DNA from: Rhodospirillaceae bacterium
Lineage (GTDB): Bacteria > Pseudomonadota > Alphaproteobacteria > UBA828
DNA: 39,399 nt
NCBI GenBank assembly: GCA_018666805.1
Contig: JABIXB010000208.1
Span: 1-39,399 of the forward strand
Direction of reading: 5' to 3'
A program made the translations under genes and the position numbers. The notes below the pieces were generated by a model. That model searched no databases. It saw only the letters and a list, made by a program, of their open reading frames with translations, and was not told the origin of the DNA. Shown here piece by piece: positions 15,355 to 35,509 of the stretch (the stretch's first letter is position 1; the number at the start of each line of letters is the position of its first letter).

Positions 15355-15825
15355 ATGGAAAAAACCGATTTTATGCAGCACGCGATCGACCTCTGCCAGC
15401 GCAAAATGGACGAGGGCGCCGGCGGCTATTGCGCCTCCCTGGTGGTCAAGGACGGCGAGGTGATCGGCGAAGGCTGGAATGACGTGATCAACAACAGCGA
15501 TCCGACCGGCCACTGCGAAATTCATGCACTCCGTGCGGCAGGTAAGAAATTAGGCACCTGGGACCTCTCGGGCTGCGATCTCTACACCACCTGGGAGCCC
15601 TGTCAAATGTGCGCCGGCGCGATCTGGTGGGCACGGATCGACCGGGTTTATTACGCCAATCTGCTGAGCGATGCGGAGCGCCTCGGCATGGATATCGGCG
15701 ATCTGCACCGCGAGGTCAGCGCGCCAACCCATGAACGCTCGCGGCCTTACGAAAGACTGATGGGCGAAGAAGCTTTCGCCGTCGTGAAGCGCTGGTTCGA
15801 TGCCACCAACCCGGAGGTGCACTGA
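15355..15825 (+). CDS. Guanine-deaminase-like nucleobase/nucleoside deaminase
   Basis: Zinc deaminase of the CMP/dCMP-deaminase fold, predicted to hydrolyse an exocyclic amino group of a nucleobase-like ring to release ammonia. 156 aa. The zinc and proton-shuttle site is HCE (His53, Glu55) with EPCQMC (Cys83, Cys86). The stretch EPCQMCAGAIWWAR is close to bacterial guanine deaminase (GuaD) and unlike cytidine deaminase. The residue between His and Glu is Cys rather than the usual Ala. ATG 15355 is chosen for its GGAGACAGGG ribosome-binding site; the upstream open frame crosses the palindrome. It is the first gene of the catabolic array. Substrate specificity is inferred only at family level. 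Confidence 0.85.
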   Translation: MEKTDFMQHAIDLCQRKMDEGAGGYCASLVVKDGEVIGEGWNDVINNSDPTGHCEIHALRAAGKKLGTWDLSGCDLYTTWEPCQMCAGAIWWARIDRVYYANLLSDAERLGMDIGDLHREVSAPTHERSRPYERLMGEEAFAVVKRWFDATNPEVH

Positions 15826-15965
15826 CCGGTTTAAAACCATTCAAAGTTGGCGTAGGCTTGGAACAGCCACAGATATCGCGGGTAACTGAAATATCACCAA
15901 GCGAAAAAAGAGGGTATGCGAACAAACCCCGGCTTATAAAAACGTTTAAACAGAGGAGATGGGAT

Positions 15966-17111
15966 ATGACTGCACGTAAAGCCGATAAGAAGCCTACATG
16001 GCGTCTCACGCGACGCAAATTCCTCAAGGGCTCGGCCGCCGCCGCTGCCCTCATTGCCGCCAGCAGCGCAACCAGGCGCGTTGCCTGGTCGGAAGAAAAC
16101 ACGCTGAGCTATCTGTGCTGGCCCGGCCATGGCGCGCCAGAGGTGGTGGAGCCGTTCGAGCAAGCCAATAATGTTAAGATCATCCCTAAGGAATATGTCG
16201 GCGGCGAAGCCATGATGGCGCTGATTAACCAGAGCGACCCCGGCACCTATGACGTGGTGCTGAGCGACCGCGAATATATTGTTATGATGCGCGATGCCGG
16301 TCTCATTGATGAGATGGATCCGAATGATTATGCATTCGATGATTTCTGGCCGGAATTTCAGAAAATGCCGGGCCACTGGCTGAACGGTAAGCTGTACTCA
16401 GTAGTGCTCGATTTCGGCTATCTCGGCGTCGTGCATAACACCGATGTGATCTCCGAGAAGGAAGCCTCATCCTATAAGGTTCTGTGGGATCCGAAGCTGA
16501 CCGGCAAAGTGGGTCAGTTCGATTGGTACCTGCCGAGCATGGGCAATCTCAGCCAATATAACGGCAACAAATCGCCGTTCGATATCGACGATGCCGCCTT
16601 TGCCAAGCTACGCGATACGGTGTTTTCACTGAAGCCGCAGGTGGCCGGCTATCACGGTATTCCCGATATCTTTAACGCGCTGAAAAATGGCGATGCATTG
16701 GCCTATCAGGGTATCGGCGATTGGATCACGATCCTGCTGTCAGCCGAAGGCTATCCGGTCACGACCACCATTCCGGACGAGGGTGGCATTCAGTGGACGG
16801 AATCGCTTTCACTGTCCACGGACGGTAAGAAGCAGGACCTGGCGAAGAAGTTCATCCAGTATCTCACCGCGCCGGAAGGCCAAGTGCGGGTCGCGTTGAA
16901 GTCTTCCTATTGGGGCTCCATTCCCAATAAGAAGGGCTGGACGCTGATGAACGATATCAAGCCGAACGAGGCCACTATTCTGCGCCATCGTTTCGATCAG
17001 CGGAACGTGATGGATGAATATGCCGACGGCAAAATCACGCTTCGTCAATTGCCTGAGCAACAGTCGATCGATGATTGGTCGGAAGTGTGGAACGAGTATA
17101 AGAATCTCTAG
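15966..17111 (+). CDS. Tat-exported ABC substrate-binding protein, PotD-like
   Basis: Periplasmic receptor of the importer encoded downstream. 381 aa. A twin-arginine signal, LTRRKFLKG at residues 14-22, precedes an alanine-rich hydrophobic stretch, so the protein is probably exported folded. The mature part begins near SEENTLSYLCWPGHG and matches the spermidine/putrescine (PotD/PotF) branch of solute-binding proteins; many members bind other compounds. ATG 15966 follows an AGAGGAG ribosome-binding site by about 8 bases; the open frame upstream lacks signal-peptide character. A strong hairpin after the stop should raise its mRNA level relative to the permeases. The ligand is unknown, but the neighbouring deaminases suggest a nitrogenous ring compound. 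Confidence 0.9.
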   Translation: MTARKADKKPTWRLTRRKFLKGSAAAAALIAASSATRRVAWSEENTLSYLCWPGHGAPEVVEPFEQANNVKIIPKEYVGGEAMMALINQSDPGTYDVVLSDREYIVMMRDAGLIDEMDPNDYAFDDFWPEFQKMPGHWLNGKLYSVVLDFGYLGVVHNTDVISEKEASSYKVLWDPKLTGKVGQFDWYLPSMGNLSQYNGNKSPFDIDDAAFAKLRDTVFSLKPQVAGYHGIPDIFNALKNGDALAYQGIGDWITILLSAEGYPVTTTIPDEGGIQWTESLSLSTDGKKQDLAKKFIQYLTAPEGQVRVALKSSYWGSIPNKKGWTLMNDIKPNEATILRHRFDQRNVMDEYADGKITLRQLPEQQSIDDWSEVWNEYKNL

Positions 17112-17120
17112 GCTGGAATT

Positions 17121-17160
17121 AACGGGCCGCCCCCCCAACGGGCGGCCCGTTTTCCTTTTT
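17121..17160 (+). terminator. Strong intrinsic terminator/attenuator after the binding-protein gene
   Basis: AACGGGCCGCCC (17121-17132) and GGGCGGCCCGTT (17140-17151) form a perfect 12-bp stem with a 7-base loop, followed by TTCCTTTTTTC. It lies 9 bases after the binding-protein stop and 45 bases before the permease ATG. Partial read-through would give more binding protein than membrane components, a common arrangement in ABC import operons. Confidence 0.88.
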
Positions 17161-17195
17161 TCTGCCACCATTCAGCGCTGATCGAATGCGCCTCC

Positions 17196-18086
17196 ATGGC
17201 CGATAAAGCTTTGACACAACCGACTGCCGGAACGGCTGCGCGCAATGTGGACGGTTACGCCCTTTTTTGGGGTTTGCCGCTGGCGCTCTGGCAATTGGTG
17301 TTCTTTGTAGCACCGCTGGTATTTCTCGTCGTGATGACCTTTTGGACGGTCAAGAATTTTCGCCTTACGCCCGATTTCGACACCGTCAATTGGGTCAATA
17401 TGTTTTCCAAAGGCTATGTTATCGACACCTATTTCCGTACTCTTTGGTATGGTGCGCTCGGCGCGGTGGTGTGCAGTGTACTGGCCTTTCCGGCATCCTA
17501 TGCGCTCGCCTTCAAGGCCTCTCCTGTGGTGCAGCGTATTGGTCTCTTTATGCTGATTACGCCGTTTTTTACCAGCTATCTGGTGCGCATCTATTCGTGG
17601 CAGGCGGTGGTATCGGACAATGGTGTACTCAACAATCTGCTCGGAGTTTTTGGCCTCGGCCCGTTCAATATTCTCGGCACGTTGCTTGGCACCATGGTCG
17701 GCTACATAACTCTAACGTTGCCGCTCGTTATCCTGTTGCAGTTTTTCAGCCTCTCCGGTGTTGACCGGAATTATATCGAGGCGGCGCAAAATCTCGGCTG
17801 CGGCCGCCTGCGGACGGTGTTCCTGGTGATTATCCCGTTGGCCAAGACCGGCATTATTCTCGCCGGAACGTTCGCCTTTATCCTTTGTTTCGGCGATCTG
17901 GTGAGCCCGACATCGTTGGGCAGCAGCAAGCCGCCGACCTTGAGCATCCTGATCGTCGATACGGTCAAGCAGGGCAATAATTGGCCGCGCGCCGCGGTGG
18001 TCGCGCTGATGATGGTGTTGACCCTTATCGTCGTTGCTTTCACCGCAATCTTTTTTGCCTATCGCGTCAAGAAAGAGAAAACATGA
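17196..18086 (+). CDS. ABC transporter permease, PotB-like
   Basis: 296 aa with about six TM helices. The cytoplasmic EAA loop is YIEAAQNLGCGRLRTVFLVIIP, which contacts the ATPase. The N-terminal WQLVFFVAPLVFLVVMTF and the region around YLVRIYSWQAVVSDNGVLNN are typical of PotB permeases of the polyamine/opine/phosphonate group. The gene lacks an obvious ribosome-binding site, and it lies just after the attenuator. It overlaps the next permease gene by 4 bases (ATGA). Confidence 0.9.
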   Translation: MADKALTQPTAGTAARNVDGYALFWGLPLALWQLVFFVAPLVFLVVMTFWTVKNFRLTPDFDTVNWVNMFSKGYVIDTYFRTLWYGALGAVVCSVLAFPASYALAFKASPVVQRIGLFMLITPFFTSYLVRIYSWQAVVSDNGVLNNLLGVFGLGPFNILGTLLGTMVGYITLTLPLVILLQFFSLSGVDRNYIEAAQNLGCGRLRTVFLVIIPLAKTGIILAGTFAFILCFGDLVSPTSLGSSKPPTLSILIVDTVKQGNNWPRAAVVALMMVLTLIVVAFTAIFFAYRVKKEKT

Positions 18087-18898
18087 GCGCCGACCGCCTT
18101 ATCGCCTACGCGTTGCGCGGCTGGTTCCTGGTGGCGTTGTTCTTCATCTTTGTGCCGATCATCATCAATTTTATTTATTCCTTCAGTCCCAGCCGTTTTC
18201 CGACCTTGCCGCTTGGCGGCTTCAGCACCGGCTGGTACGAGCTGATATTGAACGAGGCGCCGGTACCGCGCGCCTTCGGCAACAGCCTGAAAGCCGGCGT
18301 GATCGTCGCCGTTATATCCACCTTTATCGGTTTTGCCGCCGCCTATACGGATTACCGCTACCGTTTCCTCGGCAAGAATTTTTACCTCGCTCTGGCGCTC
18401 CTGCCGCCGACTATTCCGGTGCTTATTCTCGGCCTTGTGATGCTGATGTTTCTCAGCCGGGTCAGCCTCGTCGGAGAACTTTATTCGGTCGTTCTCGCAC
18501 ATGTTGTGTATTGCATTCCCTTCGCCATGGCGCTGATTCGCCTGCGTTTGGCGCAGATGAATCCCGACCTTGAAAGCGCGGCATGGAATCTTGGCGCCAA
18601 TTCGTGGCGTGCCATGCGCGAGGTGATCGTACCCTTTACCCTGCCTTCGATATTCGCCGCCCTGGCGCTCACCATGGCGGTCTCGTTCGATGAATATTTG
18701 ATCGCCTTTTTTGTCGGCGGCCTGACCGAGACCTTGCCGGTGCGCGTGCTGGCGCTGTTGCAGGGCCAGGTCAGCCCGCGCATCAACGCCATCGGCAGCG
18801 TTGTTTTCACCATATCCATGAGCCTTGTAATCCTGGCCCAGATCCTTTTATTGACGCGTCGCTCCGGCGGACGCAGCATCGCCGCTGGAGGCAAATAA
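18083..18898 (+). CDS. ABC transporter permease, PotC-like
   Basis: 271 aa, about six TM helices, second half of the permease heterodimer. The EAA loop is ESAAWNLGANSWRAMREVIVP, with FDEYLIAFFVGG after it, as in PotC/PotI. ATG 18083 overlaps the PotB-like stop (ATGA); the upstream extension of the frame codes the out-of-frame end of that gene. The ATPase gene starts 3 bases after its stop. Confidence 0.9.
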   Translation: MSADRLIAYALRGWFLVALFFIFVPIIINFIYSFSPSRFPTLPLGGFSTGWYELILNEAPVPRAFGNSLKAGVIVAVISTFIGFAAAYTDYRYRFLGKNFYLALALLPPTIPVLILGLVMLMFLSRVSLVGELYSVVLAHVVYCIPFAMALIRLRLAQMNPDLESAAWNLGANSWRAMREVIVPFTLPSIFAALALTMAVSFDEYLIAFFVGGLTETLPVRVLALLQGQVSPRINAIGSVVFTISMSLVILAQILLLTRRSGGRSIAAGGK

Positions 18899-18900
18899 CC

Positions 18901-19986
18901 ATGTCGGAAGCCTTGCTCGTCTTGGATAAGGTGGTGAAACGTTTCGGCGAACACACCGCCGTCGATGGCGTGGATTTGCAGATCAGTAAAGGCGAATTTC
19001 TTGCCATTATGGGGCCGTCGGGTTGTGGCAAGACAACGACGCTCCGCATGATCGCCGGCCTCGAGCAACCGAGCGCGGGCGAGATCCGCCTCAATGGCAC
19101 ACGCATGAACGAGCTCAAGCCGTGGCAGCGCGATACGCCGTTGGTGTGGCAGAATTTGGCGCTCTTTCCCCATTTGAGCGTGTTAAAGAATGTCGAATTC
19201 GGCCTCAAGATGCGCAATGTCGCCGCGCGCGAGCGGCGCGAACGCTCGATGAACTGGCTCGAGCGCATGGGCCTCGCCGAATATGCCGGGCGCAATATCG
19301 CCCAGCTTTCGGGCGGTGAGCGCCAGCGCGTGGCGATCGCCCGGGCACTCGTGACCGAGCCCGAAATCCTGCTGCTCGACGAACCCTTAAGCGCGCTCGA
19401 TGCGCATTTGCGCGTGCGCATGCAGTCGGAAATCACGCAACTGCAAAAGCAGCTCGGCATCACTTTTGCCTATGTCACGCACAATCAATCGGAAGCCTTC
19501 GCCATGGCGAGCCGGGTGGCAATCATGAATGGCGGGCTGATCCAGCAGATTGGCAGCCCGCGCGAGGTTTACCGTGCGCCGGCCAATCATTTCGTCGCCG
19601 AATTTGTCGGCAGCAACAATATTTTGAGCGGCACCGTGACGGCCCTTGAAGGCGGGCAGGTGACAGTGCAAACCGCGTGGGGCAGCTTCAACGCGCCGAC
19701 GCCTGAGCCGGCGCCGAAAACAGGCGATGCGCTGGAGCTTGTTGTGAGCGCTGACCTGGTTGCCGTATCGGATAGCGCCGGCGCGGAGGGCAATGTGTTG
19801 AGCGGCGAACTGATTAGTGAGGAATTCATCGGCTCGATTATCACGCTTTACATCGACATCGGCGACGGCATCGTTTTTCGCGCACAAAAGCAGCAGCATG
19901 AATTGGATGCGCTCGACTATAGTTCGGGGCGCAAGCTCTTTGCTTCGTGGCGGCCCGAGCACACTTATGTCCTACCGCAAATCTGA
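18901..19986 (+). CDS. ABC transporter ATP-binding protein, PotA-like
   Basis: 361 aa, energises import through the two permeases. Walker A is GPSGCGKTT (Lys44), the Q-loop is at VWQNLALFPHL, the ABC signature is LSGGERQRVAIARAL (from about 137), Walker B is ILLLDEP (Asp160, Glu161), and the switch histidine is in YVTHNQSEA. The C-terminal 120 residues form a TOBE/OB-type regulatory domain, as in PotA, MalK and UgpC. Tightly linked to the permeases. Substrate class cannot be decided from the ATPase. Confidence 0.93.
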   Translation: MSEALLVLDKVVKRFGEHTAVDGVDLQISKGEFLAIMGPSGCGKTTTLRMIAGLEQPSAGEIRLNGTRMNELKPWQRDTPLVWQNLALFPHLSVLKNVEFGLKMRNVAARERRERSMNWLERMGLAEYAGRNIAQLSGGERQRVAIARALVTEPEILLLDEPLSALDAHLRVRMQSEITQLQKQLGITFAYVTHNQSEAFAMASRVAIMNGGLIQQIGSPREVYRAPANHFVAEFVGSNNILSGTVTALEGGQVTVQTAWGSFNAPTPEPAPKTGDALELVVSADLVAVSDSAGAEGNVLSGELISEEFIGSIITLYIDIGDGIVFRAQKQQHELDALDYSSGRKLFASWRPEHTYVLPQI

Positions 19987-20012
19987 GACGGCAAAAGAAC
20001 AGAGGAAAGAAA

Positions 20013-21533
20013 ATGACCATTCATATCAAGGGCGCCAAAATCATGGCGATGGATGCCAGCCATGGCAGTGACTGTTTCGATGGCGATATTCTCATCGAGG
20101 ATCAGCGCATTGTCGCCATGGGGGCGGCGCTGCCCGAGGCGGAAGCCGATATCGTCATCGATGGGCACGATAAGCTGGTGACGCCGGGCTTCGTTAACGG
20201 CCATATCCATACGCCCGAAGCGCTGTTTCGTGGGCGCTACGAGAATTTACCGCTCGAGATGTGGATGACGCTGGCCTATTTCCTCGTCGGCGACGGGCAG
20301 CTTGCGCCGCGCGCGCTCTATCTCCGTTCCATGCTGGTCGCCATGGACGCGCTCCGGAACGGCGTAACCTTTCTCGCCGATGATATTCTCGAGCCGCCGC
20401 TACAATCGATGGAGACGCTGGGCTGCATTTTTCAGGCCTATGACGATGTCGGCATCCGCGCCAATGTTTCCGGCCATGTCATCGACCGGCCGATCGCCGA
20501 TACCATTCCTTTCTTCCCCGAGATTCTGCCCGACGATTTGTTGGCGCAAATCAATGCCGGCAAGCCGCCGACGGTGGAAGAATATGTGGCTTTTGCCGAA
20601 GAGGCTTTCTCGCTCTATCACGGCCGTGCCGACGGGCGGCTCCGCTTTATGGTGGCGCCGTCGGGGCCGCAGCGCTGCACGGTTGAGCTGATGCAGGCGG
20701 CGGATGAATTGGCGCGGGCCAACAAAACCGCCTTCCATACCCATATCGTCGAATCCAAAATACAAGCCGTGGCCGGCCATGAATTTTACGGCAAGACCCT
20801 GGTGCAATATATGCACGATCTCGGGCTGCTGAACCGCGGCACCACCATTGCGCACGGTGTGTGGACAACGGACGAAGACATCGCGCTGTTGGGCGCGGCC
20901 AAATGTTCGGTGGTGCATAACTCGCTCTCCAACATGAAGCTCCATTCCGGTGTGGCGCCGATCCGCCGCATGATCGATGCCGGCGTCAATGTCGCGATCG
21001 GCACGGACGGGGTATCGACCAGCGACACACCGCGCATGTTCGATGCCATGCGGACGGCTGCGTATATGCACGGCGTGACGACGGGCGATAATGAAGCCTG
21101 GCTCAGTTCGCATGAGGTGATTCACGCGGCGACCATGGGCGGCGCTTACAGTGCCTTGTTGGAAGACGATATCGGCTCGCTCGAAGTGGGCAAGAAGGCC
21201 GACCTCGTCATCATGGACCTGCGCAACGCCAATTTCGTGCCGCTCAACGATCCGCGCAAACACATTGTCTACTGCGAAAATGGCAGCTCGGTTGAAACCG
21301 TGATCGTCGACGGCGAAATCGTCCTGCGCGACGGTCTGCTGACAAAAATAGACGAGGAGGCGATGCTCGATGAATTCCGCGAGCTGATGCCGGAAATAAT
21401 GGCTAAACATGAGCCGCAGGAGGAGCAGAACAAAGCCTTCCTTCCCTACCTGCAAGAGGTTTACGAGCGCTGCGCCGCGGTCGACCTCGGTATCCATCGC
21501 TATGGTGGCAACGATATGCCGTCTTGGCCGTAG
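20013..21533 (+). CDS. TRZ/ATZ-type amidohydrolase A (aminohydrolase on a ring substrate)
   Basis: 506-aa metal-dependent amidohydrolase of the cytosine deaminase/atrazine chlorohydrolase (TRZ/ATZ) group. It has the beta-strand 1 HxH (GHIHT, His64 and His66), further ligands in AFHTHIVESK and TIAHGVWTTDEDI, and the catalytic aspartate in IGTDGVSTSDTPR. The fold is a TIM barrel with a composite beta domain at both ends (KIMAMDASHG and GSLEVGKKADLVIMDL). Expected reaction: hydrolytic deamination or dechlorination of an N-heterocycle. The start at 20013 follows AGAGGAAAGAAA; the ORF extends upstream into the ATPase gene without support. It is a clear paralogue of the protein at 22392-23912, with the creatininase gene between them. 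Substrate unknown. Confidence 0.88.
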   Translation: MTIHIKGAKIMAMDASHGSDCFDGDILIEDQRIVAMGAALPEAEADIVIDGHDKLVTPGFVNGHIHTPEALFRGRYENLPLEMWMTLAYFLVGDGQLAPRALYLRSMLVAMDALRNGVTFLADDILEPPLQSMETLGCIFQAYDDVGIRANVSGHVIDRPIADTIPFFPEILPDDLLAQINAGKPPTVEEYVAFAEEAFSLYHGRADGRLRFMVAPSGPQRCTVELMQAADELARANKTAFHTHIVESKIQAVAGHEFYGKTLVQYMHDLGLLNRGTTIAHGVWTTDEDIALLGAAKCSVVHNSLSNMKLHSGVAPIRRMIDAGVNVAIGTDGVSTSDTPRMFDAMRTAAYMHGVTTGDNEAWLSSHEVIHAATMGGAYSALLEDDIGSLEVGKKADLVIMDLRNANFVPLNDPRKHIVYCENGSSVETVIVDGEIVLRDGLLTKIDEEAMLDEFRELMPEIMAKHEPQEEQNKAFLPYLQEVYERCAAVDLGIHRYGGNDMPSWP

Positions 21534-21569
21534 GACACGCCCCAGAACCGACCATGAAAGGAGTTTGCG

Positions 21570-22379
21570 ATGACAGATAATATCCGAATTTGCGAACTGA
21601 ACTGGATGGAATATGACCGTCGCCTGCGTGAGGAAGCGCCGGTGGTGATGCTGCCGGTCGGCTCGCTCGAGCAGCATGGCCCGCATCTGCCGATGCATTG
21701 CGATTCGCTGATCCCGACGGCGATTTGCGAAGGTGTCGCGGCACAGTCGGGCGGGTTGGTGGCGCCAACGATCAGCTATGGCTACAAATCCCAACCCAAA
21801 TCCGGCGGCGGCAATCATTTCCCCGGCACCACCAGCCTCGACGGCCAGACGTTGATTTTTCTCGTGCGCGACGTGATCAAGGAATTCGCCCGCCACGGCG
21901 TGAAGAAAATAGCGCTGATGGATGGCCATTACGAAAACAATATGTTCCTGGTCGAGGGCATCGATCTGGCGCTCAGGGAATTGCGCCGCGACGGCATCAC
22001 GGATCTCCGCATCGCCAAGCTGCCCTACTGGGAATATGCCTCCGAAGATACGCTCGACAAGGCGTTTCCCGATGGTTTTCCCGGCTGGCCGCTTGAGCAT
22101 GCCGGCGTGATGGAGACCTCGGTGATGCTCCATCTCCACCCCGAATTCGTCAACATGGACAAGGTGCCGATGCATCCGCCAGCGGAATTCCCGCTGCACG
22201 ATATGTATCCCACCGATCCGGCGACGGTGCCGTCTTCGGGCGCGCTGTCCTCGGCCGCGGTGGCGACGGCGGAGAAGGGCAAGATGTTTATGGACGAATA
22301 TGTCGGCGGCGCGGCGCAAGCGCTGAACGAAGCTTTCGGCGAAGAAGAGAACATTATTATTCTGGGCGACAGCAGCTAA
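21570..22379 (+). CDS. Creatininase (creatinine amidohydrolase) family protein
   Basis: 269 aa. Creatininase opens the creatinine lactam to creatine using two metal ions. From memory of the Pseudomonas enzyme, the metal ligands are Glu34, His36, Asp45, His120 and Glu122, and here the same residues sit at the same numbers: LEQHG (Glu34, His36), HCDS (Asp45), GHYEN (His120, Glu122). The flap tryptophan Trp154 (LPYWEY) is present, as are Trp173 and His177 in GWPLEHAG (174 and 178 in the reference). KSGGGNHFPGTTSLDGQTL and VEGIDLALRELR are also close to that enzyme. So this is a close relative of true creatininase rather than the mycofactocin or deformylase branches. Ribosome-binding site AAAGGAG. 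No creatinase gene (creatine to sarcosine and urea) is nearby, so the substrate may be a creatinine analogue. Confidence 0.88.
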   Translation: MTDNIRICELNWMEYDRRLREEAPVVMLPVGSLEQHGPHLPMHCDSLIPTAICEGVAAQSGGLVAPTISYGYKSQPKSGGGNHFPGTTSLDGQTLIFLVRDVIKEFARHGVKKIALMDGHYENNMFLVEGIDLALRELRRDGITDLRIAKLPYWEYASEDTLDKAFPDGFPGWPLEHAGVMETSVMLHLHPEFVNMDKVPMHPPAEFPLHDMYPTDPATVPSSGALSSAAVATAEKGKMFMDEYVGGAAQALNEAFGEEENIIILGDSS

Positions 22380-22391
22380 CGGGAGAGGCAT

Positions 22392-23912
22392 ATGAGCTAT
22401 CTGATCAAGGGCGCGACCATTGTTGCCATGGACGGCGCGCACGGCGCCGAGCCGTTCAGCGGCGATATTCTCATTGGTGATGATCGCATCAAGGAGATCG
22501 GCGAAAATCTCTCCGCGGCCGGCGTTGGCGAGACCATCGACGGACGCGGCAAGCTGGTCATGCCGGGCTTGACCAACGCCCATGTCCATTCCTGGGAGGC
22601 GATGTTTAAAGGGCGCTACGACAATCTGCCGCTCGAACTCTGGATGTTGCTGTGCTACCCGATCCTCGGCGCCGTGCCGCTGCCGCCGCGCCTGGTTTAT
22701 CTGCGTACCATGATCGTTGGCATGGAGTGCCTGAAAACCGGCGTTACCAATGTGCTCGACGATGTGCTTGAAATGCCGACCCAGGATTTGGATCAGCTCG
22801 CAGCGACCTTCCAGGCCTATGACGATCTCGGCATGCGCGCCAACCTCTCCGGCCATATCATCAACCGACCGTTCAGCGAGACCATTCCCTTTTCCGATGA
22901 ATATTTACCGGAGGATTTGAAGGCCAAGGTTTCAGCCGCGGTACCGCCGACGACCGAGGCCTTTGTCGAGCTTGCCGAAGAGGCGGTATCGCGCTTCCAC
23001 AATAAAAAGGGCCGCTTGCGCTACGTCGTTGCGCCGTCCGGCCCGCAGCGCTGCACCGATGACATGTTGGTCGCCGCCTATGAACTGGCCGATAAGCACG
23101 ACATGGCCTATCACATCCATATTCTTGAATCGAAAATCCAGGCCGTTACCGGACATGAGTTTTACGGCAAGACCCTGATTGGCCATATGAACGATATCGG
23201 CGCGCTCGGGCCGCGCACGACGATCGCCCATTCGATCTGGGTGACGGATGAGGATATCGCCATGATGGCGGATGCCGGCTCGACCGTGGTGCACAACGCG
23301 ATCTCCAATCAAAAGCTCGGCGCCGGCATCATGCCGTACCGCAAATTGATGGATGCCGGCATCACCATCGGTCTCGGCTCGGACGGCATTTCGACCAATG
23401 ACACGCCGCGTATTTTCGATGTGATGAAGGCGGCGGCGCTGTTGCATAAGGTCTCGACGCCCGATTATCCGCAAGGGCCGACGGCGAGCGAGATATTGCG
23501 CGCCGGCACGATCAACGGTGCGCGTACCGCGATGATCGATGGCGATACCGGCTCGCTCGAAGCGGGCAAGAAGGCCGATCTTCTGATTCTCAACATGAAG
23601 ACGCTGAATTTCACGCCGCTTAATGATGTGCGCAATCACCTGGTCTATTGCGAAAACGGCACCTCGATTGAGAAGGTCATGGTGAATGGCGAAATCGTGG
23701 TTGAGGACAATCGCCTGAAACGGGTGGATGAGGCGGCACTGTTGGAAGAGTTGCGCGGCCATTTGCCGGAATTCCAAAAACAACACGCGCAGTTGGAAGC
23801 GCTCAACAGCGCCTTCCGCCCGGCATTCGAACAAATTCACAAGCGCTGCTGCGGGCATGATCTGGGAATCAACCGGTTCTCGCGCCCGCCGGGCGACTGG
23901 TATCAGGCATAG
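22392..23912 (+). CDS. TRZ/ATZ-type amidohydrolase B, paralogue of amidohydrolase A
   Basis: 506 aa, the same length as the protein at 20013-21533 and strongly similar along its whole length, including VAPSGPQRCT, SKIQAVTGHEFYGKTL and VYCENGTSIEKV. Metal site: AHVHS (His64, His66), AYHIHILESK, TIAHSIWVTDEDI and the catalytic aspartate in LGSDGISTNDTPR. Differences from copy A in the substrate loops (HIHTPEA to HVHSWEA; AHGVWTT to AHSIWVT) suggest separate or sequential substrates. The gene starts 13 bases after the creatininase gene with a GGGAGAG ribosome-binding site. Reaction class deamination of a ring amine is inferred; it may instead act as a heteromer with copy A. Confidence 0.88.
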   Translation: MSYLIKGATIVAMDGAHGAEPFSGDILIGDDRIKEIGENLSAAGVGETIDGRGKLVMPGLTNAHVHSWEAMFKGRYDNLPLELWMLLCYPILGAVPLPPRLVYLRTMIVGMECLKTGVTNVLDDVLEMPTQDLDQLAATFQAYDDLGMRANLSGHIINRPFSETIPFSDEYLPEDLKAKVSAAVPPTTEAFVELAEEAVSRFHNKKGRLRYVVAPSGPQRCTDDMLVAAYELADKHDMAYHIHILESKIQAVTGHEFYGKTLIGHMNDIGALGPRTTIAHSIWVTDEDIAMMADAGSTVVHNAISNQKLGAGIMPYRKLMDAGITIGLGSDGISTNDTPRIFDVMKAAALLHKVSTPDYPQGPTASEILRAGTINGARTAMIDGDTGSLEAGKKADLLILNMKTLNFTPLNDVRNHLVYCENGTSIEKVMVNGEIVVEDNRLKRVDEAALLEELRGHLPEFQKQHAQLEALNSAFRPAFEQIHKRCCGHDLGINRFSRPPGDWYQA

Positions 23913-23923
23913 GGAGACGGCAA

Positions 23924-25195
23924 ATGGATATCATCCTCAAGAACGCCAATGTGGCGCACCGCGACGAGCCGGTGCGCAACGCCGACATCGCCATCAAGGG
24001 CGAAACGATCGCCGCTGTGGAGGCCAACATTACCGCCGAGGCCGGCCAGACAATCGATTGCGGCGGGCGGCTGGTAAGCGGCTCGCTGATTGACGCGCAT
24101 GTCCATCTCGATGCCGTTCTGGCGGCGGGTCTCGAGCGCGACAATCAATCCGGCACCCTGCATGAGGGCATTGAGATCTGGACCGATTTCAAACCCAAGC
24201 GCACGGTCGAGGCGATCAAGGAGCGGGCGCGCCGCGCCATCGATTGGGAGGTGGCGCAAGGCGCGGGCTTTATCCGCACCCATGCCGATGTTTGCGACGA
24301 TGCCCAGCTTTCGACCCAGGCGCTGGTCGAGCTGCGCGATGAACTGCGCGACCGGGTCGATATTCAGATCGTCGCCTTTCCGCAAGTCGGCATCAAATCC
24401 TTTCCCGGCGGCGAGAAGCAGATGCGAGATTCGCTCGATATGGGTGCCGATGTCGTTGGCGGCATCCCGCATAACGAAGTCACGCGCGAGGCCGGTCATG
24501 CGAGCGTTATGTTTATCTTTGACGAAGCCGAGAAGCGCGGCCTCAAGATCGATGTGCATTGCGACGAGGTCGATGACAGCCATGCACGTTTTCTCGAGGT
24601 CATGGTCGAGCAGACGTTCCAGCGCGGCATGGGCGCAAGCGTGACAGCGAGCCATTGCGTCGCCATGCATTCCTACAACAACGCCTATGCCTACCGCCTG
24701 ATGGGCTGGGTCGCGCGTTCCGAATTGAACGTCACCGCCAACCCGTTCGACAACATCATTCTGCAGGCGCGCGAGGACAGCTATCCCAAGCGGCGTGGCA
24801 TGACGCGGGTGAAGGAGCTGTTGCAAGCCGGGGTGAATGTCGGCATCGGCCATGATTCGATCATGGACCCGTGGTATCCGCTCGGGCGCGGCGACATGGT
24901 GGATGCGGCGTCGCTGGCGCTGCATGTTTGCCAGATGTCGGGCGTCGAGGAAATCGATACCTGTTTCGACATGATCACGTGGCGCAACGCGCAGAATTTG
25001 GGGCTGGAAAATTATGGCGTGGCGTCCGGTGCCCAGGCCGATTTGGTGATTTTCGATGCCGCCAGCAAGGCCGATGTGCTGCGCATCAACCCGGCCTGCA
25101 CCCATGTTTTCAAGCGCGGCCAACTGGTTTCCGAAACCAAACCGGCGGAAAGCACGGTGATGGGCGGCAGGGTGGATTTCACGCGCGGCAATTGA
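23924..25195 (+). CDS. CodA-like amidohydrolase 1 (cytosine/creatinine deaminase type)
   Basis: 423-aa TIM-barrel amidohydrolase of the CodA group, which deaminates cytosine, isocytosine and, in some species, creatinine. Motifs: HxH in DAHVHLDAV (His59, His61), IDVHCDEVDD, ASHCVAMH, and the catalytic aspartate in GIGHDSIMDPWYPLG, the closest match to CodA. In the first motif the CodA lysine of HLDKAL is replaced by alanine (HLDAVL). Ribosome-binding site GGGAGAC. It lies 11 bases after amidohydrolase B and 10 bases before the next CodA-like gene. The substrate is unknown, but the full active site suggests a working deaminase. Confidence 0.88.
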   Translation: MDIILKNANVAHRDEPVRNADIAIKGETIAAVEANITAEAGQTIDCGGRLVSGSLIDAHVHLDAVLAAGLERDNQSGTLHEGIEIWTDFKPKRTVEAIKERARRAIDWEVAQGAGFIRTHADVCDDAQLSTQALVELRDELRDRVDIQIVAFPQVGIKSFPGGEKQMRDSLDMGADVVGGIPHNEVTREAGHASVMFIFDEAEKRGLKIDVHCDEVDDSHARFLEVMVEQTFQRGMGASVTASHCVAMHSYNNAYAYRLMGWVARSELNVTANPFDNIILQAREDSYPKRRGMTRVKELLQAGVNVGIGHDSIMDPWYPLGRGDMVDAASLALHVCQMSGVEEIDTCFDMITWRNAQNLGLENYGVASGAQADLVIFDAASKADVLRINPACTHVFKRGQLVSETKPAESTVMGGRVDFTRGN

Positions 25196-25205
25196 GGCAG
25201 AATCC

Positions 25206-26459
25206 GTGGATTTGATCGTTAAAAACGCCAATCTGTGGCGTGGCGATGGCGCGTGCGACCTTTACATCGCCGACGGGCGTTTTACCGCAGCGCCGGAGGA
25301 TGGCAACACCAGCGGCGCCGAAATTATCGATGCGGCGGGCTGTCTTTGTGTCGCCGGGTTTGTCGAGCCGCATATTCATCTCGACAAGGCGCTGATTAAT
25401 GAGGATGTGCGGCCCAATGTTTCCGGCACTCTTGATGAAGCGATTGAAATCATCTGGGAGCGCAAGCGCGCCTACGATGTCGACGAAATCGCCGCGCGCG
25501 CCGGGCGGGTGATCCGCTCTGCCCTGGCCAATGGCGTGACGCACATCCGCAGCCATGTCGATGTCGATAATATCGGCGGCTTGCGCCCGCTCGAAGGCGT
25601 TGCCGAGGCGCGCCGACGCCATAGCGATGTGATGGATATTCAGATCGTCGCCTTCCCGCAGGAAGGTATTTTAAAGAACGCCGGCACCGAAAAACTGATG
25701 TGGCAGGCGATGGAGGCCGGCGCCGATGTGGTCGGTGGCATGCCGTTTAATGAGAAGCACCCGCAAGACAGCGCGCGCCATATCAGCATCGCTTTTGAGA
25801 TCGCCAAGGCGTTCGATGCCGATATCGATATGCATGTCGACGAGACCGACGATGTCGGTGCACGGACATTGGAGATGCTGGCCGAGCAAACCATCGAACA
25901 TGGCTGGCAGGGCCGCGTCACGGCGGGGCATACATGTGCGCTCGCCGGTTATGACGAAGATTACGCCAATGCCGTCATTGCGCTGGTGCGTGAGGCGGAG
26001 ATGCACATGATCACCAATCCGGCGACCAACCTGATGCTGCAGGGGCGGCTCGATGCGCAGCCCAAGCGGCGCGGTATTACGCGGGTGAAGGAATTGCTCG
26101 CCGAAGGCATTAACGTCTCGTTCGGTCAGGATTGCGTCAAGGATACCTTCTATCCCTTTGGCCGCGTCGACCCGTTGGAAGTGGGCTTGATTGCCGCCCA
26201 CGCCGCGCATATGAGCCTGCCGCAGGAGATCGAGCAGGTGTTTGACATGCAAACCAACCGGGCGGCAAAGGTGATGCGTCTTGCCGATTACGGCTTCGCG
26301 CCGGGTTGTGCGGCGGATCTGGTCATTCTCGATGCTGGCAGCGCCACCGAGGCGTTGTGCAAACAGGCGGCGCGCAATACCGTCATCAAGAACGGGCAAG
26401 TCATCGTCGAAAGCGAAACACGGCAGGACTGGCGCTGGGCGCCGGCGGAATTAGCGTAG
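25206..26459 (+). CDS. CodA-like amidohydrolase 2
   Basis: 417 aa, similar in length and order of motifs to its upstream neighbour but clearly diverged: [10 protein letters not shown] (His56, His58), [20 protein letters not shown], and [14 protein letters not shown] with the catalytic aspartate. It keeps the lysine after HLD that copy 1 lacks. The start is GTG 25206 with GAGG overlapping the stop of copy 1. Expected reaction: hydrolytic deamination of a six- or five-membered N-heterocycle. The two genes look like an old tandem duplication that has specialised. Confidence 0.88.
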
Positions 26460-26473
26460 GGAGAAGAACAAGA

Positions 26474-27568
26474 ATGGCAATCGATGTCGCCAAAATCGAA
26501 ATCAAGAGTGTGTCCGATGCGAGCGGGCTGGAAGAATTAATCACCTCGGGCCGTATGGCAGCCGACGATATTGTCGCCGCCATCGGCAAGACGGAAGGCA
26601 ATGGCGGCGTTAATGATTTCACCCGCATTCTGTCCGATCAGGCCTATCGTGCGGTGCTGCTCAAGCACGGCACACGCAGCGAGGCCGAGATCAAGGAAAT
26701 CCCAATGGTCTGGTCGGGTGGCTGCGACGGCGTCATTACCCCGCATGCCACCGTGTTTGCGCGGAATGGCGAAGCTGGCACGGGCGGGCAATCGCGCCTC
26801 GCCATGGGCACGGCGATGAGCGACATCATCCTGCCCGAGGATATCGGCCGCCCGGCGATGGTCGAGACGGTCGCCGCCGGTGTGCGCGCGGCAATGCAGA
26901 ACGCCGGCATCAGCGATGTTAAAGACGTGCATTATGTCCAGACCAAAACCCCGCTTCTCACCATTGACGGTATCCAGGAAGCGCATGGCCGGGGCCAAAG
27001 CGTCGCCTGCGAGGTGCATGATTCGATGGGCGTTTCGAACGGCACCACCGGGCTTGGCATCGCGCTCGCCCTGGGTGAGGCCGAGATGCCGGCGGCGGAA
27101 GATATTTGCCGCAATCTCGATCTTTATTCTTCCGTCGCTTCTTGCTCTTCGGGCGTCGAACTCGATCGGGCACAGATCGTCTTGTTCGGCAACCGCGACG
27201 GAGCCGGTGGGCGCTACCGTATCGGCCACAGCGTGATGCGCGACGCCCTCGATATGGACGGCATTTATGAATCGATCCGCTCGGCCGGGTTGGATTTGCC
27301 GGAGCGGGCGCGGCCTGGGGATCTCGGCGGCAAGCTGGTCAATTGCTTTATCAAATGCGAGGCAGACCCCGGCGCCAAACTGCGCAACCGGCGGCAAATT
27401 ATGCTCGATGATTCCGATGTTCATCATCATCGCCATTCAAAAGGTGCGGTTGGCGGCGTGGCGGCGGCGGCGATTGGCGATCCGGCGGTGTTCGTTTCGG
27501 TCGACGCCATGCACCAAGGCCCGCCCGGCGGTGGCCCCTCGATTGCCATTGTCGATATGGGCGATTAA
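26474..27568 (+). CDS. Ring-opening amidohydrolase (cyanuric acid hydrolase/barbiturase family)
   Basis: 364 aa. This small family has a threefold repeated fold in which three Ser-Lys pairs surround one active site that hydrolytically opens cyanuric acid (AtzD/TrzD) or barbituric acid. Repeat landmarks: [15 protein letters not shown] in the first unit, [19 protein letters not shown] in the second, and [18 protein letters not shown] with [17 protein letters not shown] in the third. The terminal signature differs from the EHMGP/EHQGP form I recall for the characterised enzymes (here AMHQGP), so the substrate may also differ. ATG 26474; the open frame further upstream lies in the CodA-like gene. 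The stop TAA overlaps the amidase ATG (TAATG), so the two steps are probably co-produced. Confidence 0.88.
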
Positions 27569-28989
27569 TGCCGGCTGATTTAACGCGCCGCAGCGCGTTT
27601 AAAATAGCGGCGGCGCTGCGTGCGCGCGACGTCAGCGCCGTTGAGGTTCTGGAAGCCCATCTCGGCGTAATCGATCACCTCAATCCGCGTCTCAACGCCA
27701 TCGTGACGCTCGCCGCCGATGCCGCGCGCGAGACTGCCCGGGCAGCGGACGCGCTCATTGCCGCAGGCAGTGAGAATCTGCCGCCGCTGTTGGGCCTGCC
27801 GGTGGTGATTAAGGACATCGTCGAGACGGCGGGCATACGCACCACTTGGGCCTCACCGGTTTACGCCGATCATGTGCCCGAGGAGGACGCCGAGGTTGTG
27901 GCCCGCCTGCGCAGCGCCGGCGCGATTATTCTCGGCAAGAGCAATACGCCGGAATTCGCCGCCGGCGCCAATACCGACAATGAACTCTTCGGCCCGACGG
28001 GAAATCCGTGGGATCCGGTGCTGAGCCCGTCCGGCTCGTCCGGTGGCTCGGCGGCGGCGGTGGCGAGCGGCATGGTGCCGATTGCGCAAGGCACCGATTT
28101 CGGCTGCTCGCTACGCATGCCGGCGGCTTTTTGCGGCATTGTCGGCCTCCGCACCACGCCCGGCCTGATCTCCAACTATCCGCTGCCGTTGCCGTGGGAT
28201 CCCGGCCAGGTGTTGGGGCCGATGGCGCGCAGCGCTGAAGATGCTGCGATGATGCTCGACGCCATGGCCGGCTACAGCGAGAAAATGCCGAATTCCGTTC
28301 TGGCGCCGTGGTCGAGCGCGCTTGAGATCGTGCGCGGGCGGGAGGATGCCAAGGGCCTCCGCCTCGCCTATGCGCCCGACATTGCCGCCATCGGCGTCGA
28401 TGCGGAGCTTGAGGGTATTTGCCGCAAGGCGGCGCTCGGCCTGGCCGGGGATGGCGCGATTGTCGAAGAGATTGATTTTGACCTCTCGGATGCGCGCGAT
28501 GCCTATCTCACGCTGCGCGGCGAATGGATGGTCGGCATGCAATATGAGCGCCTCGACAATCTCGACGCTTTCGGGCCGAATTTAGCCGGCAATGTGCGCT
28601 CCGGGCTCGGCACTACAATGCAGGAATTGGCCGCCGCCGAGGATATGCGCACCCGCGTTTGGCATCGCTACAGAAAATTATTCGAGACATACGATGCGCT
28701 CTTGATGCCGATGTCGCCGGTGCAGCAATTCCCGGTCAAACAAAATTTCCCCGACAGCATCGGCGGCCGCAAGCTGGAGAATTATGTCGATTGGATCGCC
28801 GGTGCCTTCCTGGTGACCATGGCCGGTATCCCGGCGGGCTCGATCCCGGCCGGCCTCACACAGGCCGGCCTGCCGGTTGGCCTGCAAATCGCGGCGCCGC
28901 GTTTTGCCGAGCCGCTAATATTATCGCTCGGAAAATTGCTGCAGCGCGCTAATCCTATTGGCTGGCCGGCTTGGGCCGACAGTCACTGA
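27568..28989 (+). CDS. Amidase signature family hydrolase, coupled to the ring-opening enzyme
   Basis: 473 aa. The Ser-cisSer-Lys triad is readable: Lys82 in VVIKD, Ser157 in GSSGGS, Ser181 in GTDFGCSLRMP, with the expected 24-residue spacing between the serines. The nucleophile loop has Cys where most members have Gly (GGS to GCS). Substrates of the family include linear amides, allophanate and carbamoyl compounds such as ureidomalonate. Because its ATG overlaps the stop of the ring-opening amidohydrolase, it most likely cleaves the ring-opened product. A full allophanate hydrolase C-terminal domain is absent. Confidence 0.87.
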   Translation: MPADLTRRSAFKIAAALRARDVSAVEVLEAHLGVIDHLNPRLNAIVTLAADAARETARAADALIAAGSENLPPLLGLPVVIKDIVETAGIRTTWASPVYADHVPEEDAEVVARLRSAGAIILGKSNTPEFAAGANTDNELFGPTGNPWDPVLSPSGSSGGSAAAVASGMVPIAQGTDFGCSLRMPAAFCGIVGLRTTPGLISNYPLPLPWDPGQVLGPMARSAEDAAMMLDAMAGYSEKMPNSVLAPWSSALEIVRGREDAKGLRLAYAPDIAAIGVDAELEGICRKAALGLAGDGAIVEEIDFDLSDARDAYLTLRGEWMVGMQYERLDNLDAFGPNLAGNVRSGLGTTMQELAAAEDMRTRVWHRYRKLFETYDALLMPMSPVQQFPVKQNFPDSIGGRKLENYVDWIAGAFLVTMAGIPAGSIPAGLTQAGLPVGLQIAAPRFAEPLILSLGKLLQRANPIGWPAWADSH

Positions 28990-29005
28990 CTGTTGAGGTG
29001 ACGGA

Positions 29006-29887
29006 ATGGGGATGTTCGATTGTATCGGATTTATCGGCGTCGGTGTGATGGGCGAGCCCATGTGCCGAAATCTGGCTTTGAAAGGCGGCGACAAGGTATT
29101 GGCCTATGACATTGATTCCGCGCCGCTCGAACGCCTCGCCGCCGACGGCGTGGTAGCGGCGGATTCGCTTGCTGAATTGTGCGCCAAGACACACACCATC
29201 CTGATGTCGCTGCCTGACGGTGAGCTGGTGCGTCTTGCCTGTTATGGCGAACATGGCCTACTGGAAAAATTGACCTCGGGCCAAAGCGTCATCGATTGCG
29301 GCACCTCGCCGCCGCAATTGGCGCGTGAACTGCATCAGGCATTTGCCGCAAAAAATATCGCGTTTGCCGATGCGCCGGTGGCGCGCACCCGCCAGGCAGC
29401 AATCGACGGCACGCTCAGCATTATGGTTGGCGGCGACAAAAGTGTGTTTGACCGCATTCAGCCGATACTCGCCTGCATGGCGAGCGATATTACCCATTGC
29501 GGCGAGCCCGGCGCCGGCCAGACGGTAAAAATTCTCAACAATATGATGTTGTTCCAAAATTGCGCCGCCATTGCCGAGGCGCTCGCCATTGCGCGCCGCG
29601 CAGGACTTGATGAGGAGTTGTTTCTGCAAACGGTTGGTAAAAGTTCCGGTGATAGTTTCGCGCTGCGCAATCACGCCACCAAGGCTATGCTGCCGCGTGA
29701 TTATCCCGAGGGCGCGTTTTCGGTGCGCTATGCGCTCAAGGATCTGGTCTACGCGCTCGACCTCGCGGCGGCGGAGAAGGTTGAGATAAAAGGCGCCGAG
29801 CTGGTGCGCGAACGCTTCGAGAAAGCCATCGAGGAGGGCCTTGGCGAGCGCTACCACCCGGTCGTCCGCGAGGTGATCGATTCCTAG
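29006..29887 (+). CDS. Beta-hydroxyacid dehydrogenase (3-hydroxyisobutyrate/tartronate semialdehyde reductase family)
   Basis: 293-aa NAD(P)-dependent dehydrogenase. Rossmann motif IGFIGVGVMGEPM at the N-terminus, catalytic lysine Lys175 in GAGQTVKILNN. The substrate-binding motif that usually reads DAPVSGG is DAPVARTRQAA here, so the acid recognised may not be hydroxyisobutyrate or tartronate semialdehyde. As last gene of the array it may reduce or oxidise the carbon skeleton left after nitrogen removal. A GAGGTGACGG ribosome-binding site precedes ATG 29006. The stop shares CTAG with the convergent gene. Confidence 0.87.
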   Translation: MGMFDCIGFIGVGVMGEPMCRNLALKGGDKVLAYDIDSAPLERLAADGVVAADSLAELCAKTHTILMSLPDGELVRLACYGEHGLLEKLTSGQSVIDCGTSPPQLARELHQAFAAKNIAFADAPVARTRQAAIDGTLSIMVGGDKSVFDRIQPILACMASDITHCGEPGAGQTVKILNNMMLFQNCAAIAEALAIARRAGLDEELFLQTVGKSSGDSFALRNHATKAMLPRDYPEGAFSVRYALKDLVYALDLAAAEKVEIKGAELVRERFEKAIEEGLGERYHPVVREVIDS

Positions 29888-32779: not shown

Positions 32780-32807
32780 TTGTTTGCCTTCGGCCAGGCG
32801 CTAGAAT
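32780..32807 (+). promoter_or_regulatory. Candidate promoter of the molybdoenzyme operon
   Basis: TTGTTT (32780-32785), a 16-base spacer, and TAGAAT (32802-32807, 5/6 match to the -10) lie 25 bases ahead of ATG 32833. The spacer holds GCCT-TCGGCC-AGGC, a small dyad that could be an operator. Because the -10 lies inside the longer open frame, it supports the start at 32833. Confidence 0.4.
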
Positions 32808-32832
32808 GGCGGCCCTTGGGAGAGCGATAAGA

Positions 32833-34761
32833 ATGACCGCCAAAACCGTTAAATCCGTCTGCCCGAAAGACTGCCCGGACACCTGTGGCATGCTCAGCCA
32901 GGTCGAAAATGGCCGTGTGGTGGCGGTGCGCGGCGATCCGGACCACCCCATTACGCAAGGTTTTCTGTGCGGGCGCTTTCAGCATTATGAAGAGCTGATT
33001 CACCATCCCGAGAGGCTGCAACAGCCGCTCTACCGGGAGGATAAAAGCGCGGATTTCAGGCAAATTTCATGGCCGGAAGCGCTGCAAATCATTGCCCGGC
33101 GCTTTCACGCGATCATCGCCGAGCGTGGCGGCGCGGCGATCCTGCCCTATCACTATCTTGCCAATATGGGCTTCGTTTCCTCGCGCTCGGGAGATCGTCT
33201 TTGGAACAAGCTTAATAGCAGCCGGGTTGGGCTGGAAATATGCGCCATGGCCGGGGCGGAGGCGGTGATTCGCACCTTTGGCGCCATTCGCGGCACCGAG
33301 CCGCAACATATGAGCAAAACCCGCTGTTATGTCGCCTGGGGCAAGAATCCGAAGGCGACCAATATCCACAGCCATGTGCTGAGCAAGGATATCCACCCGA
33401 CCATCGTCGTCGATCCGTACCGCTCCGAATCGGCCAAGGTGGCGGATCTTTACATTCAACCGCGCCCGGCCAGCGATCCGGTGCTGGCGATGGCGTTGAT
33501 GCGGCTTTTGATCGAGCGTGGCTGGGCGGATGAGGAATTCCTCAGCAACCACACCAGCGGCTATGACGCGGTGCGGGCAAAGGTGATGGAAACGGGCTTG
33601 GCGGCGGCAGCCGATATATGCGGCGTTCCGGCGGCGGATATCGAACAATTCGCCGAGCTCTACGCGCTCAACACGCCCGCGCTGATTCATATCGGCGTCG
33701 GCCTGCAGCGCAACAGCAATGGCGGCGAGATGGTGGCGGCGCTGGCGACATTGGCGGCGATGGCCGGCCAGGTCGGCGTACCGGGCGGCGGCGCGCTCTA
33801 CGCCAATTTCGATTGGCCGATGGGTGATATCAGCGAGCCGGAATTACGCAGCGACGGCCCCAATTTCCATAACATGATCAAACTCGGCGAGACCCTGACC
33901 GCCGATGACGCCATTCAGGCGCTTTATGTTTTCAATTCCAACCCGGCGGCGACGGCGCCCAACCAAAACAAGGTGCTTGCCGGCCTGGCGCGTGATGATC
34001 TCTTTGTCGTTGTGCATGAGCTTTTCATGAGCGACACGGCGAAGAGTGCCAATTTGGTGCTGCCGGCCTGCGCCCAGGCCGAGCAATGGGATCTGCACCG
34101 TTCCTATTGGCATGATTATGCGCAGATCAACAATCCGGCGATTGAACCGCAAGGCGAGGCGCGTTCCAACCATTGGGTGTTCGGCCAGATTGCCCAGGCG
34201 ATGGGTTTCGACGAGCCGTGTTTCCGTGAAAGCGAGGAAGACACTTTGCGCGGCCTGTTGGCCGGAACGGGTCTCGATTTTGATGCCCTGGCCGCCGGGC
34301 CGGTGTCTTGCATGCCGGTGGATGAAACCAGCTTTGCCGACCGTAAGTTCCCCACGCCAAGCGGCAAACTGGAATTGATGACGCCGAATTACACCCCGGC
34401 CGCACCTGACGATGAAAACCGCTACCGTTTGATCACGCCGAAGAGCCGGCATCTACAGTCGAGCCAGCTTTTCAATGTGGCGCGCAAGCATGCCGGGGTG
34501 CGCGAGGCGTCGCTCTATCTCCATCCCGAGGACGGCGCGCGCGAAAATATTGAAGATGGCGCCGGGGTGCGCGTCTGGAACGGGCGCGGTGAGGTCGAGT
34601 TGGTAGCGCGCTTGAGCGAAGACGTGCAGCCCGGTCTCATCGTTAGCCACATGGTGCGCTGGGGCGCCAACGCCAATGCCACCACGCCGGACACGCCAGC
34701 GGATATGGGCGGCAATTCGACCTTCCACACCAATTTCGTCAGCCTCGCGTGCGTCGCCTAG
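32833..34761 (+). CDS. Molybdopterin-dependent [4Fe-4S] oxidoreductase
   Basis: 642-aa enzyme of the DMSO-reductase (bis-MGD) superfamily. The N-terminal [4Fe-4S] motif is SVCPKDCPDTCGM with the fourth cysteine in GFLCGRF (Cys10, 14, 18, 46). Molybdopterin domains follow, with GDRLWNKLNSSRVG and YVAWGKNPKATNIHSH, and a C-terminal cofactor-binding domain (TPKSRHLQSSQLFN, VRVWNGRGEVELVAR). There is no Tat signal, so it should be cytoplasmic. Start 32833 has GGGAGAG upstream. The substrate is unknown; the group includes formate dehydrogenases, thiosulfate reductases and ring hydroxytransferases. It forms an operon with the amidotransferase (8 bases apart) and amidase. Confidence 0.88.
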   Translation: MTAKTVKSVCPKDCPDTCGMLSQVENGRVVAVRGDPDHPITQGFLCGRFQHYEELIHHPERLQQPLYREDKSADFRQISWPEALQIIARRFHAIIAERGGAAILPYHYLANMGFVSSRSGDRLWNKLNSSRVGLEICAMAGAEAVIRTFGAIRGTEPQHMSKTRCYVAWGKNPKATNIHSHVLSKDIHPTIVVDPYRSESAKVADLYIQPRPASDPVLAMALMRLLIERGWADEEFLSNHTSGYDAVRAKVMETGLAAAADICGVPAADIEQFAELYALNTPALIHIGVGLQRNSNGGEMVAALATLAAMAGQVGVPGGGALYANFDWPMGDISEPELRSDGPNFHNMIKLGETLTADDAIQALYVFNSNPAATAPNQNKVLAGLARDDLFVVVHELFMSDTAKSANLVLPACAQAEQWDLHRSYWHDYAQINNPAIEPQGEARSNHWVFGQIAQAMGFDEPCFRESEEDTLRGLLAGTGLDFDALAAGPVSCMPVDETSFADRKFPTPSGKLELMTPNYTPAAPDDENRYRLITPKSRHLQSSQLFNVARKHAGVREASLYLHPEDGARENIEDGAGVRVWNGRGEVELVARLSEDVQPGLIVSHMVRWGANANATTPDTPADMGGNSTFHTNFVSLACVA

Positions 34762-34768
34762 GAGTTTT

Positions 34769-35485: not shown

Positions 35486-35509
35486 CGATTTAACAAAAGG
35501 AAAAGACAC

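Follow-up and report, generated by a model that had tools for sequence, protein, structure and literature searches.

Two separately descended amidohydrolases flank a creatininase gene in a predicted catabolic operon of a Rhodospirillaceae bacterium

The window analysed here is a 39,399-nucleotide stretch of DNA from a Rhodospirillaceae bacterium (contig JABIXB010000208.1), and all positions are coordinates within it. On its plus strand, a creatininase gene (21570-22379) lies between two genes for ATZ/TRZ-type amidohydrolases, copy A (20013-21533) and copy B (22392-23912). The two copies are well supported as long-separated relatives, probably brought together in an operon, and not as the product of a recent duplication. 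Throughout, g1 denotes the genus of the window organism, and G- and L-numbers denote the genomes and loci compared.

Separate ancestry of copies A and B

Maximum-likelihood trees took in 29-36 relatives, and constrained topologies were compared with the approximately unbiased (AU) test. The A genes of g1 and the single-copy genes of the sister genus g6 form one clade (100/99). The B genes group with a gene of another genus (G007; 98/96), and then with one of another family (G701; 98/99). Constraining A and B of g1 to a single clade costs 123 log-likelihood units and is rejected (AU p=1.8e-46), while a single clade of A, B, g6 and G007 is weakly rejected (AU p=0.03). In both the A clade and the B clade, some genomes have just one of the two copies.

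The initial annotation had read the two copies as paralogues created by a local duplication around the creatininase. The copies instead fall in separately placed clades, the outcome it had itself named as refuting that view. Both copies do belong by sequence to one subfamily, but a local or recent duplication is rejected. A duplication older than the genus, near the base of the family, is possible. The A/B pair is one of two in the operon, the second being formed by the downstream genes C and D (40%).

Sequence, active site and fold of A and B

The claimed equal length is borne out, each protein having 506 residues when A is read from an ATG internal to a 528-residue open reading frame. They share 52% identity and 73% similarity over 497 residues with one gap (BLASTP), including the blocks VAPSGPQRCT, GHEFYGKTL and VYCENG noted earlier. 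Both match Pfam family PF01979 and carry the residues required of ATZ/TRZ-type enzymes (HxH, His, Glu, His, Asp), here H64, H66, H242, H244, E247, H281 and D332. These seven residues are identical in 24 relatives wherever the site is covered; the truncated B of G001 lacks the region of H64 and H66.

Divergence next to the HxH motif and near AHxxW had been noted, and the alignment agrees. Among 36 fixed differences between the A and B clades, six (positions 65, 67, 68, 241, 243 and 282) are no more than two residues away from a catalytic residue, as are 20 positions in all (hypergeometric p=0.0016). Beside the catalytic residues, the changes confined to the A clade are T67, P68 (in most members) and G282.

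In this class of deaminases, a Gln following β-strand 1 (GuaD cluster) or β-strand 3 (CodA cluster) sets the substrate class, the GuaD cluster comprising the guanine, 8-oxoguanine, isocytosine and AtzB types (PMC12828455). The GuaD-cluster Gln is present in the aligned AtzA, 3hpa and 7ww2, whereas A, B and every close relative have Glu there (Glu69, HxHxxE). No single substrate is assigned to A or B because Glu replaces this specificity Gln of guanine-deaminase-type enzymes. In the AlphaFold model of A (predicted local distance difference test score 84.6), AtzA, isocytosine deaminase, adenosine-deaminase homologues and TrzN tie as structural matches within ~1 Z unit, and the fold therefore picks no substrate. 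A and B resemble AtzA (4v1x), the isocytosine deaminase Vcz (7ww2/8is4) and TrzN (3ls9) in fold (Z ~44-45, 25-28% identity) and in the full metal and catalytic set. They differ from enzymes of the AtzA and 8-oxoguanine-deaminase type in Glu69, in the block VAPSGPQRCT and in a longer C-terminus, which forms a helix (448-488) in the model. Their clade stands apart from these enzymes, and its members are at least 48% identical to A or B.

A scan of the whole collection with A and B returned a single close relative, L009, whose contig is that of G001; the remaining matches are distant (~30%) and mostly from Firmicutes. On a Sinorhizobium meliloti plasmid (L102, 4588-15518), an A/B-like enzyme accompanies a nucleoside hydrolase and a BMP-type nucleoside transporter, with no creatininase, and a nucleobase-like substrate is therefore also possible for A or B. 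On a plasmid of Bradyrhizobium sp. 186 (L101, 14001-15505), an A/B-like gene behind a related transporter reads in two overlapping frames, an apparent frameshift. As judged from these sequences, A and B represent a deaminase subfamily marked by HxHxxE and VAPSGPQRCT, for which the substrate class is predicted only as a short list of candidates.

Operon layout

The bracket is part of a tightly packed predicted operon of 13 genes, all on the plus strand (15355-29887). The order is a GuaD-like deaminase, a PotDBCA-like transporter, A, creatininase, B, C, D, a ring opener, an amidase and a dehydrogenase. From the PotA-like ATPase gene onward, intergenic gaps do not exceed 36 bp. The gap between A and creatininase is 36 bp and that between creatininase and B is 12 bp; B is flanked by gaps of 11-12 bp. 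The two permease genes overlap by 4 bp, and the ring-opener and amidase genes by 1 bp. The widest gaps, ~140 and 84 bp, flank the binding-protein gene.

The first gene (15355-15825) encodes a GuaD-like nucleoside deaminase of the cytidine-deaminase fold, which matches the Bacillus subtilis guanine deaminase 1tiy over its full length, including the C-terminal part (E 5.5e-33). It is followed by a PotD-like substrate-binding protein with a Tat-type signal (RRKFLKG; 15966-17111, the start codon being read from the sequence), a PotB/H-like permease (17196-18086), a second permease of probable PotC/I type (18083-18898) and a PotA-like ATPase (18901-19986). NCBIfam searches named the PotD-, PotB/H- and PotA-like proteins; the PotC/I name follows from the position of the open reading frame and our own reading. 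The last gene (29006-29887) encodes a dehydrogenase of the 3-hydroxyisobutyrate/tartronate-semialdehyde type by Pfam and NCBIfam.

Downstream of the operon, at 32806-36856, lie genes for a molybdopterin oxidoreductase, a glutamine amidotransferase and a second amidase. This segment is conserved with the operon in G002 (L103), and the amidotransferase and amidase are kept in G005 (L205) too.

Creatininase and the uptake genes

The presence of a creatininase between the two copies is confirmed. The protein passes the TIGR04448 equivalog cut-off by 124 bits (359 against 235), and its closest solved relative is the Pseudomonas putida enzyme 1j2t (E 2.6e-93). In P. putida numbering it keeps E34, H36, D45, H120, E122, W154, W174 and H178, which we take to be metal ligands and substrate Trp and His positions. 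It differs from 1j2t in having Pro in place of D175. Creatininase occurs in 8 of 289 genomes of the class.

Related PotABCD-type transporters adjoin creatininase in G477, G782 and G842 (f172), G022 and G100. In G205 and G298 a related transporter lies beside both creatininase and a true creatinase, the G205 gene matching creatine amidinohydrolase 7yto (E 4.5e-239). G306 has creatininase plus creatinase, and GuaD-like genes also recur with related transporters elsewhere. These neighbourhoods lend support to a substrate of the creatinine type in at least some of these transporters, and make creatinine-type cyclic guanidines the leading candidates for this part of the operon. A distant A-like gene, a creatininase, an Asp/Glu-racemase-like gene and a BMP-type transporter occur together at L191 and L197, the latter with an added M20 carbamoylase-like gene.

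Putative pyrimidine-type genes downstream of B

C (23924-25195) is a homologue of CodA-type cytosine deaminases (Escherichia coli CodA 1r9z, E 4.9e-107) that retains the active-site motifs HxH, AFPQ, HCDE, SH and GHD...DPWYPLG. D (25206-26459), compared pairwise with C and with CodA, is a diverged paralogue in which the active-site Trp of DPWYPLG is Phe, and in g6 it pairs with the ring opener. Both C and D carry the β-strand-3 Gln (in AFPQ) that marks the CodA cluster, aligned to that of CodA. Another role of CodA-type enzymes, outlined in work on sponge microbiomes (PMC6742649), is the deamination of creatinine to N-methylhydantoin. C or D could do the same.

The ring-opening amidohydrolase (26474-27568) passes the NCBIfam equivalog NF052395, cyanuric acid amidohydrolase, with 425 against 360. 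Cyanuric acid hydrolases carry Arg195, Thr321, Arg325, Gly345 and Gly346 (AtzD numbering), and barbiturases carry Asn195, His321, Lys325, Val345 and Ser/Ala346 (PMC3758960). The window protein has Asn, His, Lys, Val and Asp at these positions, sharing four of five with barbiturase. It clusters in the tree with barbiturase 5hwe, an enzyme of the Toblerone fold, and scores 464 bits against it (62% identity) versus 282 bits against the best cyanuric acid hydrolase. Within its closest clade, all alphaproteobacterial members with sequence at this site have Asp346, which may, speculatively, read a 5-substituent. NF052395 also accepts a g6 homologue bearing the barbiturase specificity residues.

The amidase-signature hydrolase (27568-28989; PF01425) has the GSSGGS motif and the Lys motif. 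Its AtzE-like NCBIfam matches all remain below cut-off, the AtzE-type model scoring 214 bits against 425.75. AtzD-family and A/B-like genes tend to occur in the same genomes of the class: an A/B-like gene is present in 8 of the 15 sampled genomes that carry an AtzD-family gene and in 13 of the others (Fisher p ~9e-7, or ~2e-5 without the window's family). This association is supportive only, because the match between the two samples is approximate and many of the AtzD-family genes belong to other subtypes.

G002 and G003 have a second AtzD-family copy (L199, 8309-10277; L200, 1779-3761) with residues N, T, R, G and G, of neither type. In both genomes its direct neighbour encodes a member of the creatininase family (29-30%) in which Glu122 and Glu177 are missing. 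At L153, L154, L149, L118 and L160, hydantoinase genes of the HyuA/HyuB type are found in the vicinity of barbiturase-type, AtzD-family or A/B-like genes.

Gene order in relatives

Conserved neighbourhoods containing parts of the operon recur in related genomes. In g6 (G013 and G015; L108 and L121), the order is substrate-binding protein, two permeases, ATPase, A, creatininase, agmatinase-family ureohydrolase and GuaD, with no B. There, D sits with the ring opener at a different locus (L144, L203, L206, L207). B and C stand together in G007, where neither A nor creatininase was detected. G005, of the same genus as the window, has C, D, ring opener, amidase and dehydrogenase without the A-creatininase-B segment. 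In G010 and G019 the ureohydrolase follows A directly, with no creatininase; G019 is 67% complete, but A and ureohydrolase are adjacent there. Several genomes have a creatininase without A or B. In G003 (L104, 4038-7638), ~3.6 kb with pentapeptide-repeat-like open reading frames separates B from C.

Since parts of both blocks are separate in relatives, the window order is most readily explained as a joining of A-creatininase with B-C and with D-ring opener. The join itself would be a past event reconstructed from present-day gene orders.

Discussion

We regard the 15355-29887 region, with a probability of about one half, as a single hydrolytic operon joined from two older blocks that imports and dismantles small nitrogen-rich rings. 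Block 1 (GuaD-like deaminase, PotABCD-type transporter, A and creatininase) would import a small, probably cationic, cyclic guanidine or amidine of the creatinine type. The GuaD-like deaminase and A would replace ring amino groups, and the creatininase would open a five-membered lactam ring. Block 2 would start with B and comprise, besides, C, D, the ring opener, the amidase and the dehydrogenase; amino-pyrimidines would be deaminated by B, C and D. The barbiturase-type enzyme would then open a barbiturate-like ring, and the amidase would convert the chain to urea or ammonia and a three-carbon acid. A and B would have come to flank the creatininase when the blocks met, and would act on different substrates or at different steps. 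Directly observed are the order of the genes, the separate descent of A and B, the intact catalytic residues, the barbiturase-like residues and the conserved neighbourhoods; all substrates, the direction of flow and the feeding of one pathway by both blocks are inferred. The earlier proposal of consecutive steps or related substrates is plausible, given intact catalytic residues, fixed near-catalytic differences and one tight operon.

Several observations weigh against a single pathway of this kind. The Pro in place of D175 is also found in g6, whereas enzymes adjoining creatinase keep the Asp. Creatinase has no match in six genomes of g1 and is present in g6. The genome encodes an orthologue of the g6 ureohydrolase (84%) at another site with other neighbours (G000:C24); because the genus lacks creatinase, creatine formed from creatinine would need this enzyme or another route. 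In the transporter tree, only the f172 and G100 binding proteins are close to that of the window, and those of G205, G298 and G022 are distant; the tree does not tell which modules have a substrate in common. The A/B-like family is not tied to creatinine, as its S. meliloti context shows. The G007 contig with adjacent B and C starts inside B, with the upstream genes out of view. No uracil or thymine oxidase, for the step from uracil to barbiturate, was recognised in a search confined to the operon genes.

A possible alternative is a pair of unrelated nitrogen-scavenging cassettes housed in one operon, in which block 1 handles creatinine-type compounds and block 2 converts cytosine through uracil and barbiturate to malonate and urea, with uracil oxidation encoded elsewhere. 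The blocks occur apart in relatives, C resembles an ordinary CodA, and barbiturase is part of the oxidative pyrimidine route (PMC3758960). Yet in g1 B sits between creatininase and C with gaps of 11-12 bp, its adjacency to C recurs in G007, and the recognised neighbours include no uracil oxidase. A further variant, which we consider doubtful, is a natural, all-hydrolytic pathway that parallels s-triazine breakdown on carbon rings. In it, an amino-pyrimidine, possibly with a 5-substituent read by Asp346 of the ring opener, would lose its amino groups in turn to A, B, the GuaD-like enzyme, C and D, giving a barbiturate without an oxidase; barbiturase and amidase would open and split it, and the creatininase would handle a five-membered cyclic guanidine by-product or co-substrate. 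An s-triazine pathway proper (melamine, ammeline, cyanuric acid), like atzABCDE, is unlikely. It is suggested by family names: AtzA and TrzN are nearest to A and B among solved structures, C and D are of the AtzC/CodA class, the ring opener bears the NCBIfam name of a cyanuric acid hydrolase, and the amidase matches AtzE-type models. For the ring opener it is ruled out by the specificity residues, which are N/H/K/V and not R/T/R/G, and by the clustering with barbiturase. Moreover, A and B have Glu instead of the AtzA/GuaD Gln, the AtzA-type similarity ties with isocytosine- and adenosine-type deaminases, and the amidase lies far below the AtzE cut-off.

The remaining two explanations concern the bracket itself. 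The initial annotation also offered A, creatininase and B as subunits of one complex, which adjacent genes with short gaps would allow. Both protein families are self-sufficient oligomers, no creatininase accompanies A in G010 or in the 67% complete G019, and creatininase occurs without A or B in several genomes. This separate occurrence rules out an obligate complex, and a complex of any kind is very improbable. Recent tandem duplication of one amidohydrolase around the creatininase accounts for the equal length and the 52% identity, but it is barely credible: the tree and the AU test reject it for this genus, and single-copy genomes fall in both clades.

In conclusion, the operon resembles atzABCDEF of the s-triazine pathway in its enzyme classes, and differs from it in the barbiturase-type ring opener, the creatininase, the GuaD-like gene and the PotABCD-type transporter. 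The open literature searched describes no operon that combines creatininase with guanine deaminase, agmatinase or barbiturase. We view it as a variant of known hydrolytic nitrogen-scavenging pathways, a real and interesting catabolic operon but not an extraordinary one. Its analysis corrects the natural but wrong reading of a local duplication, and defines a deaminase subfamily with a short list of candidate substrates. The transporter-linked neighbourhood offers a candidate uptake system for creatinine-type compounds. Enzymes with barbiturase residues pass the curated model for cyanuric acid amidohydrolase, which would mislead claims of bacterial s-triazine degradation.

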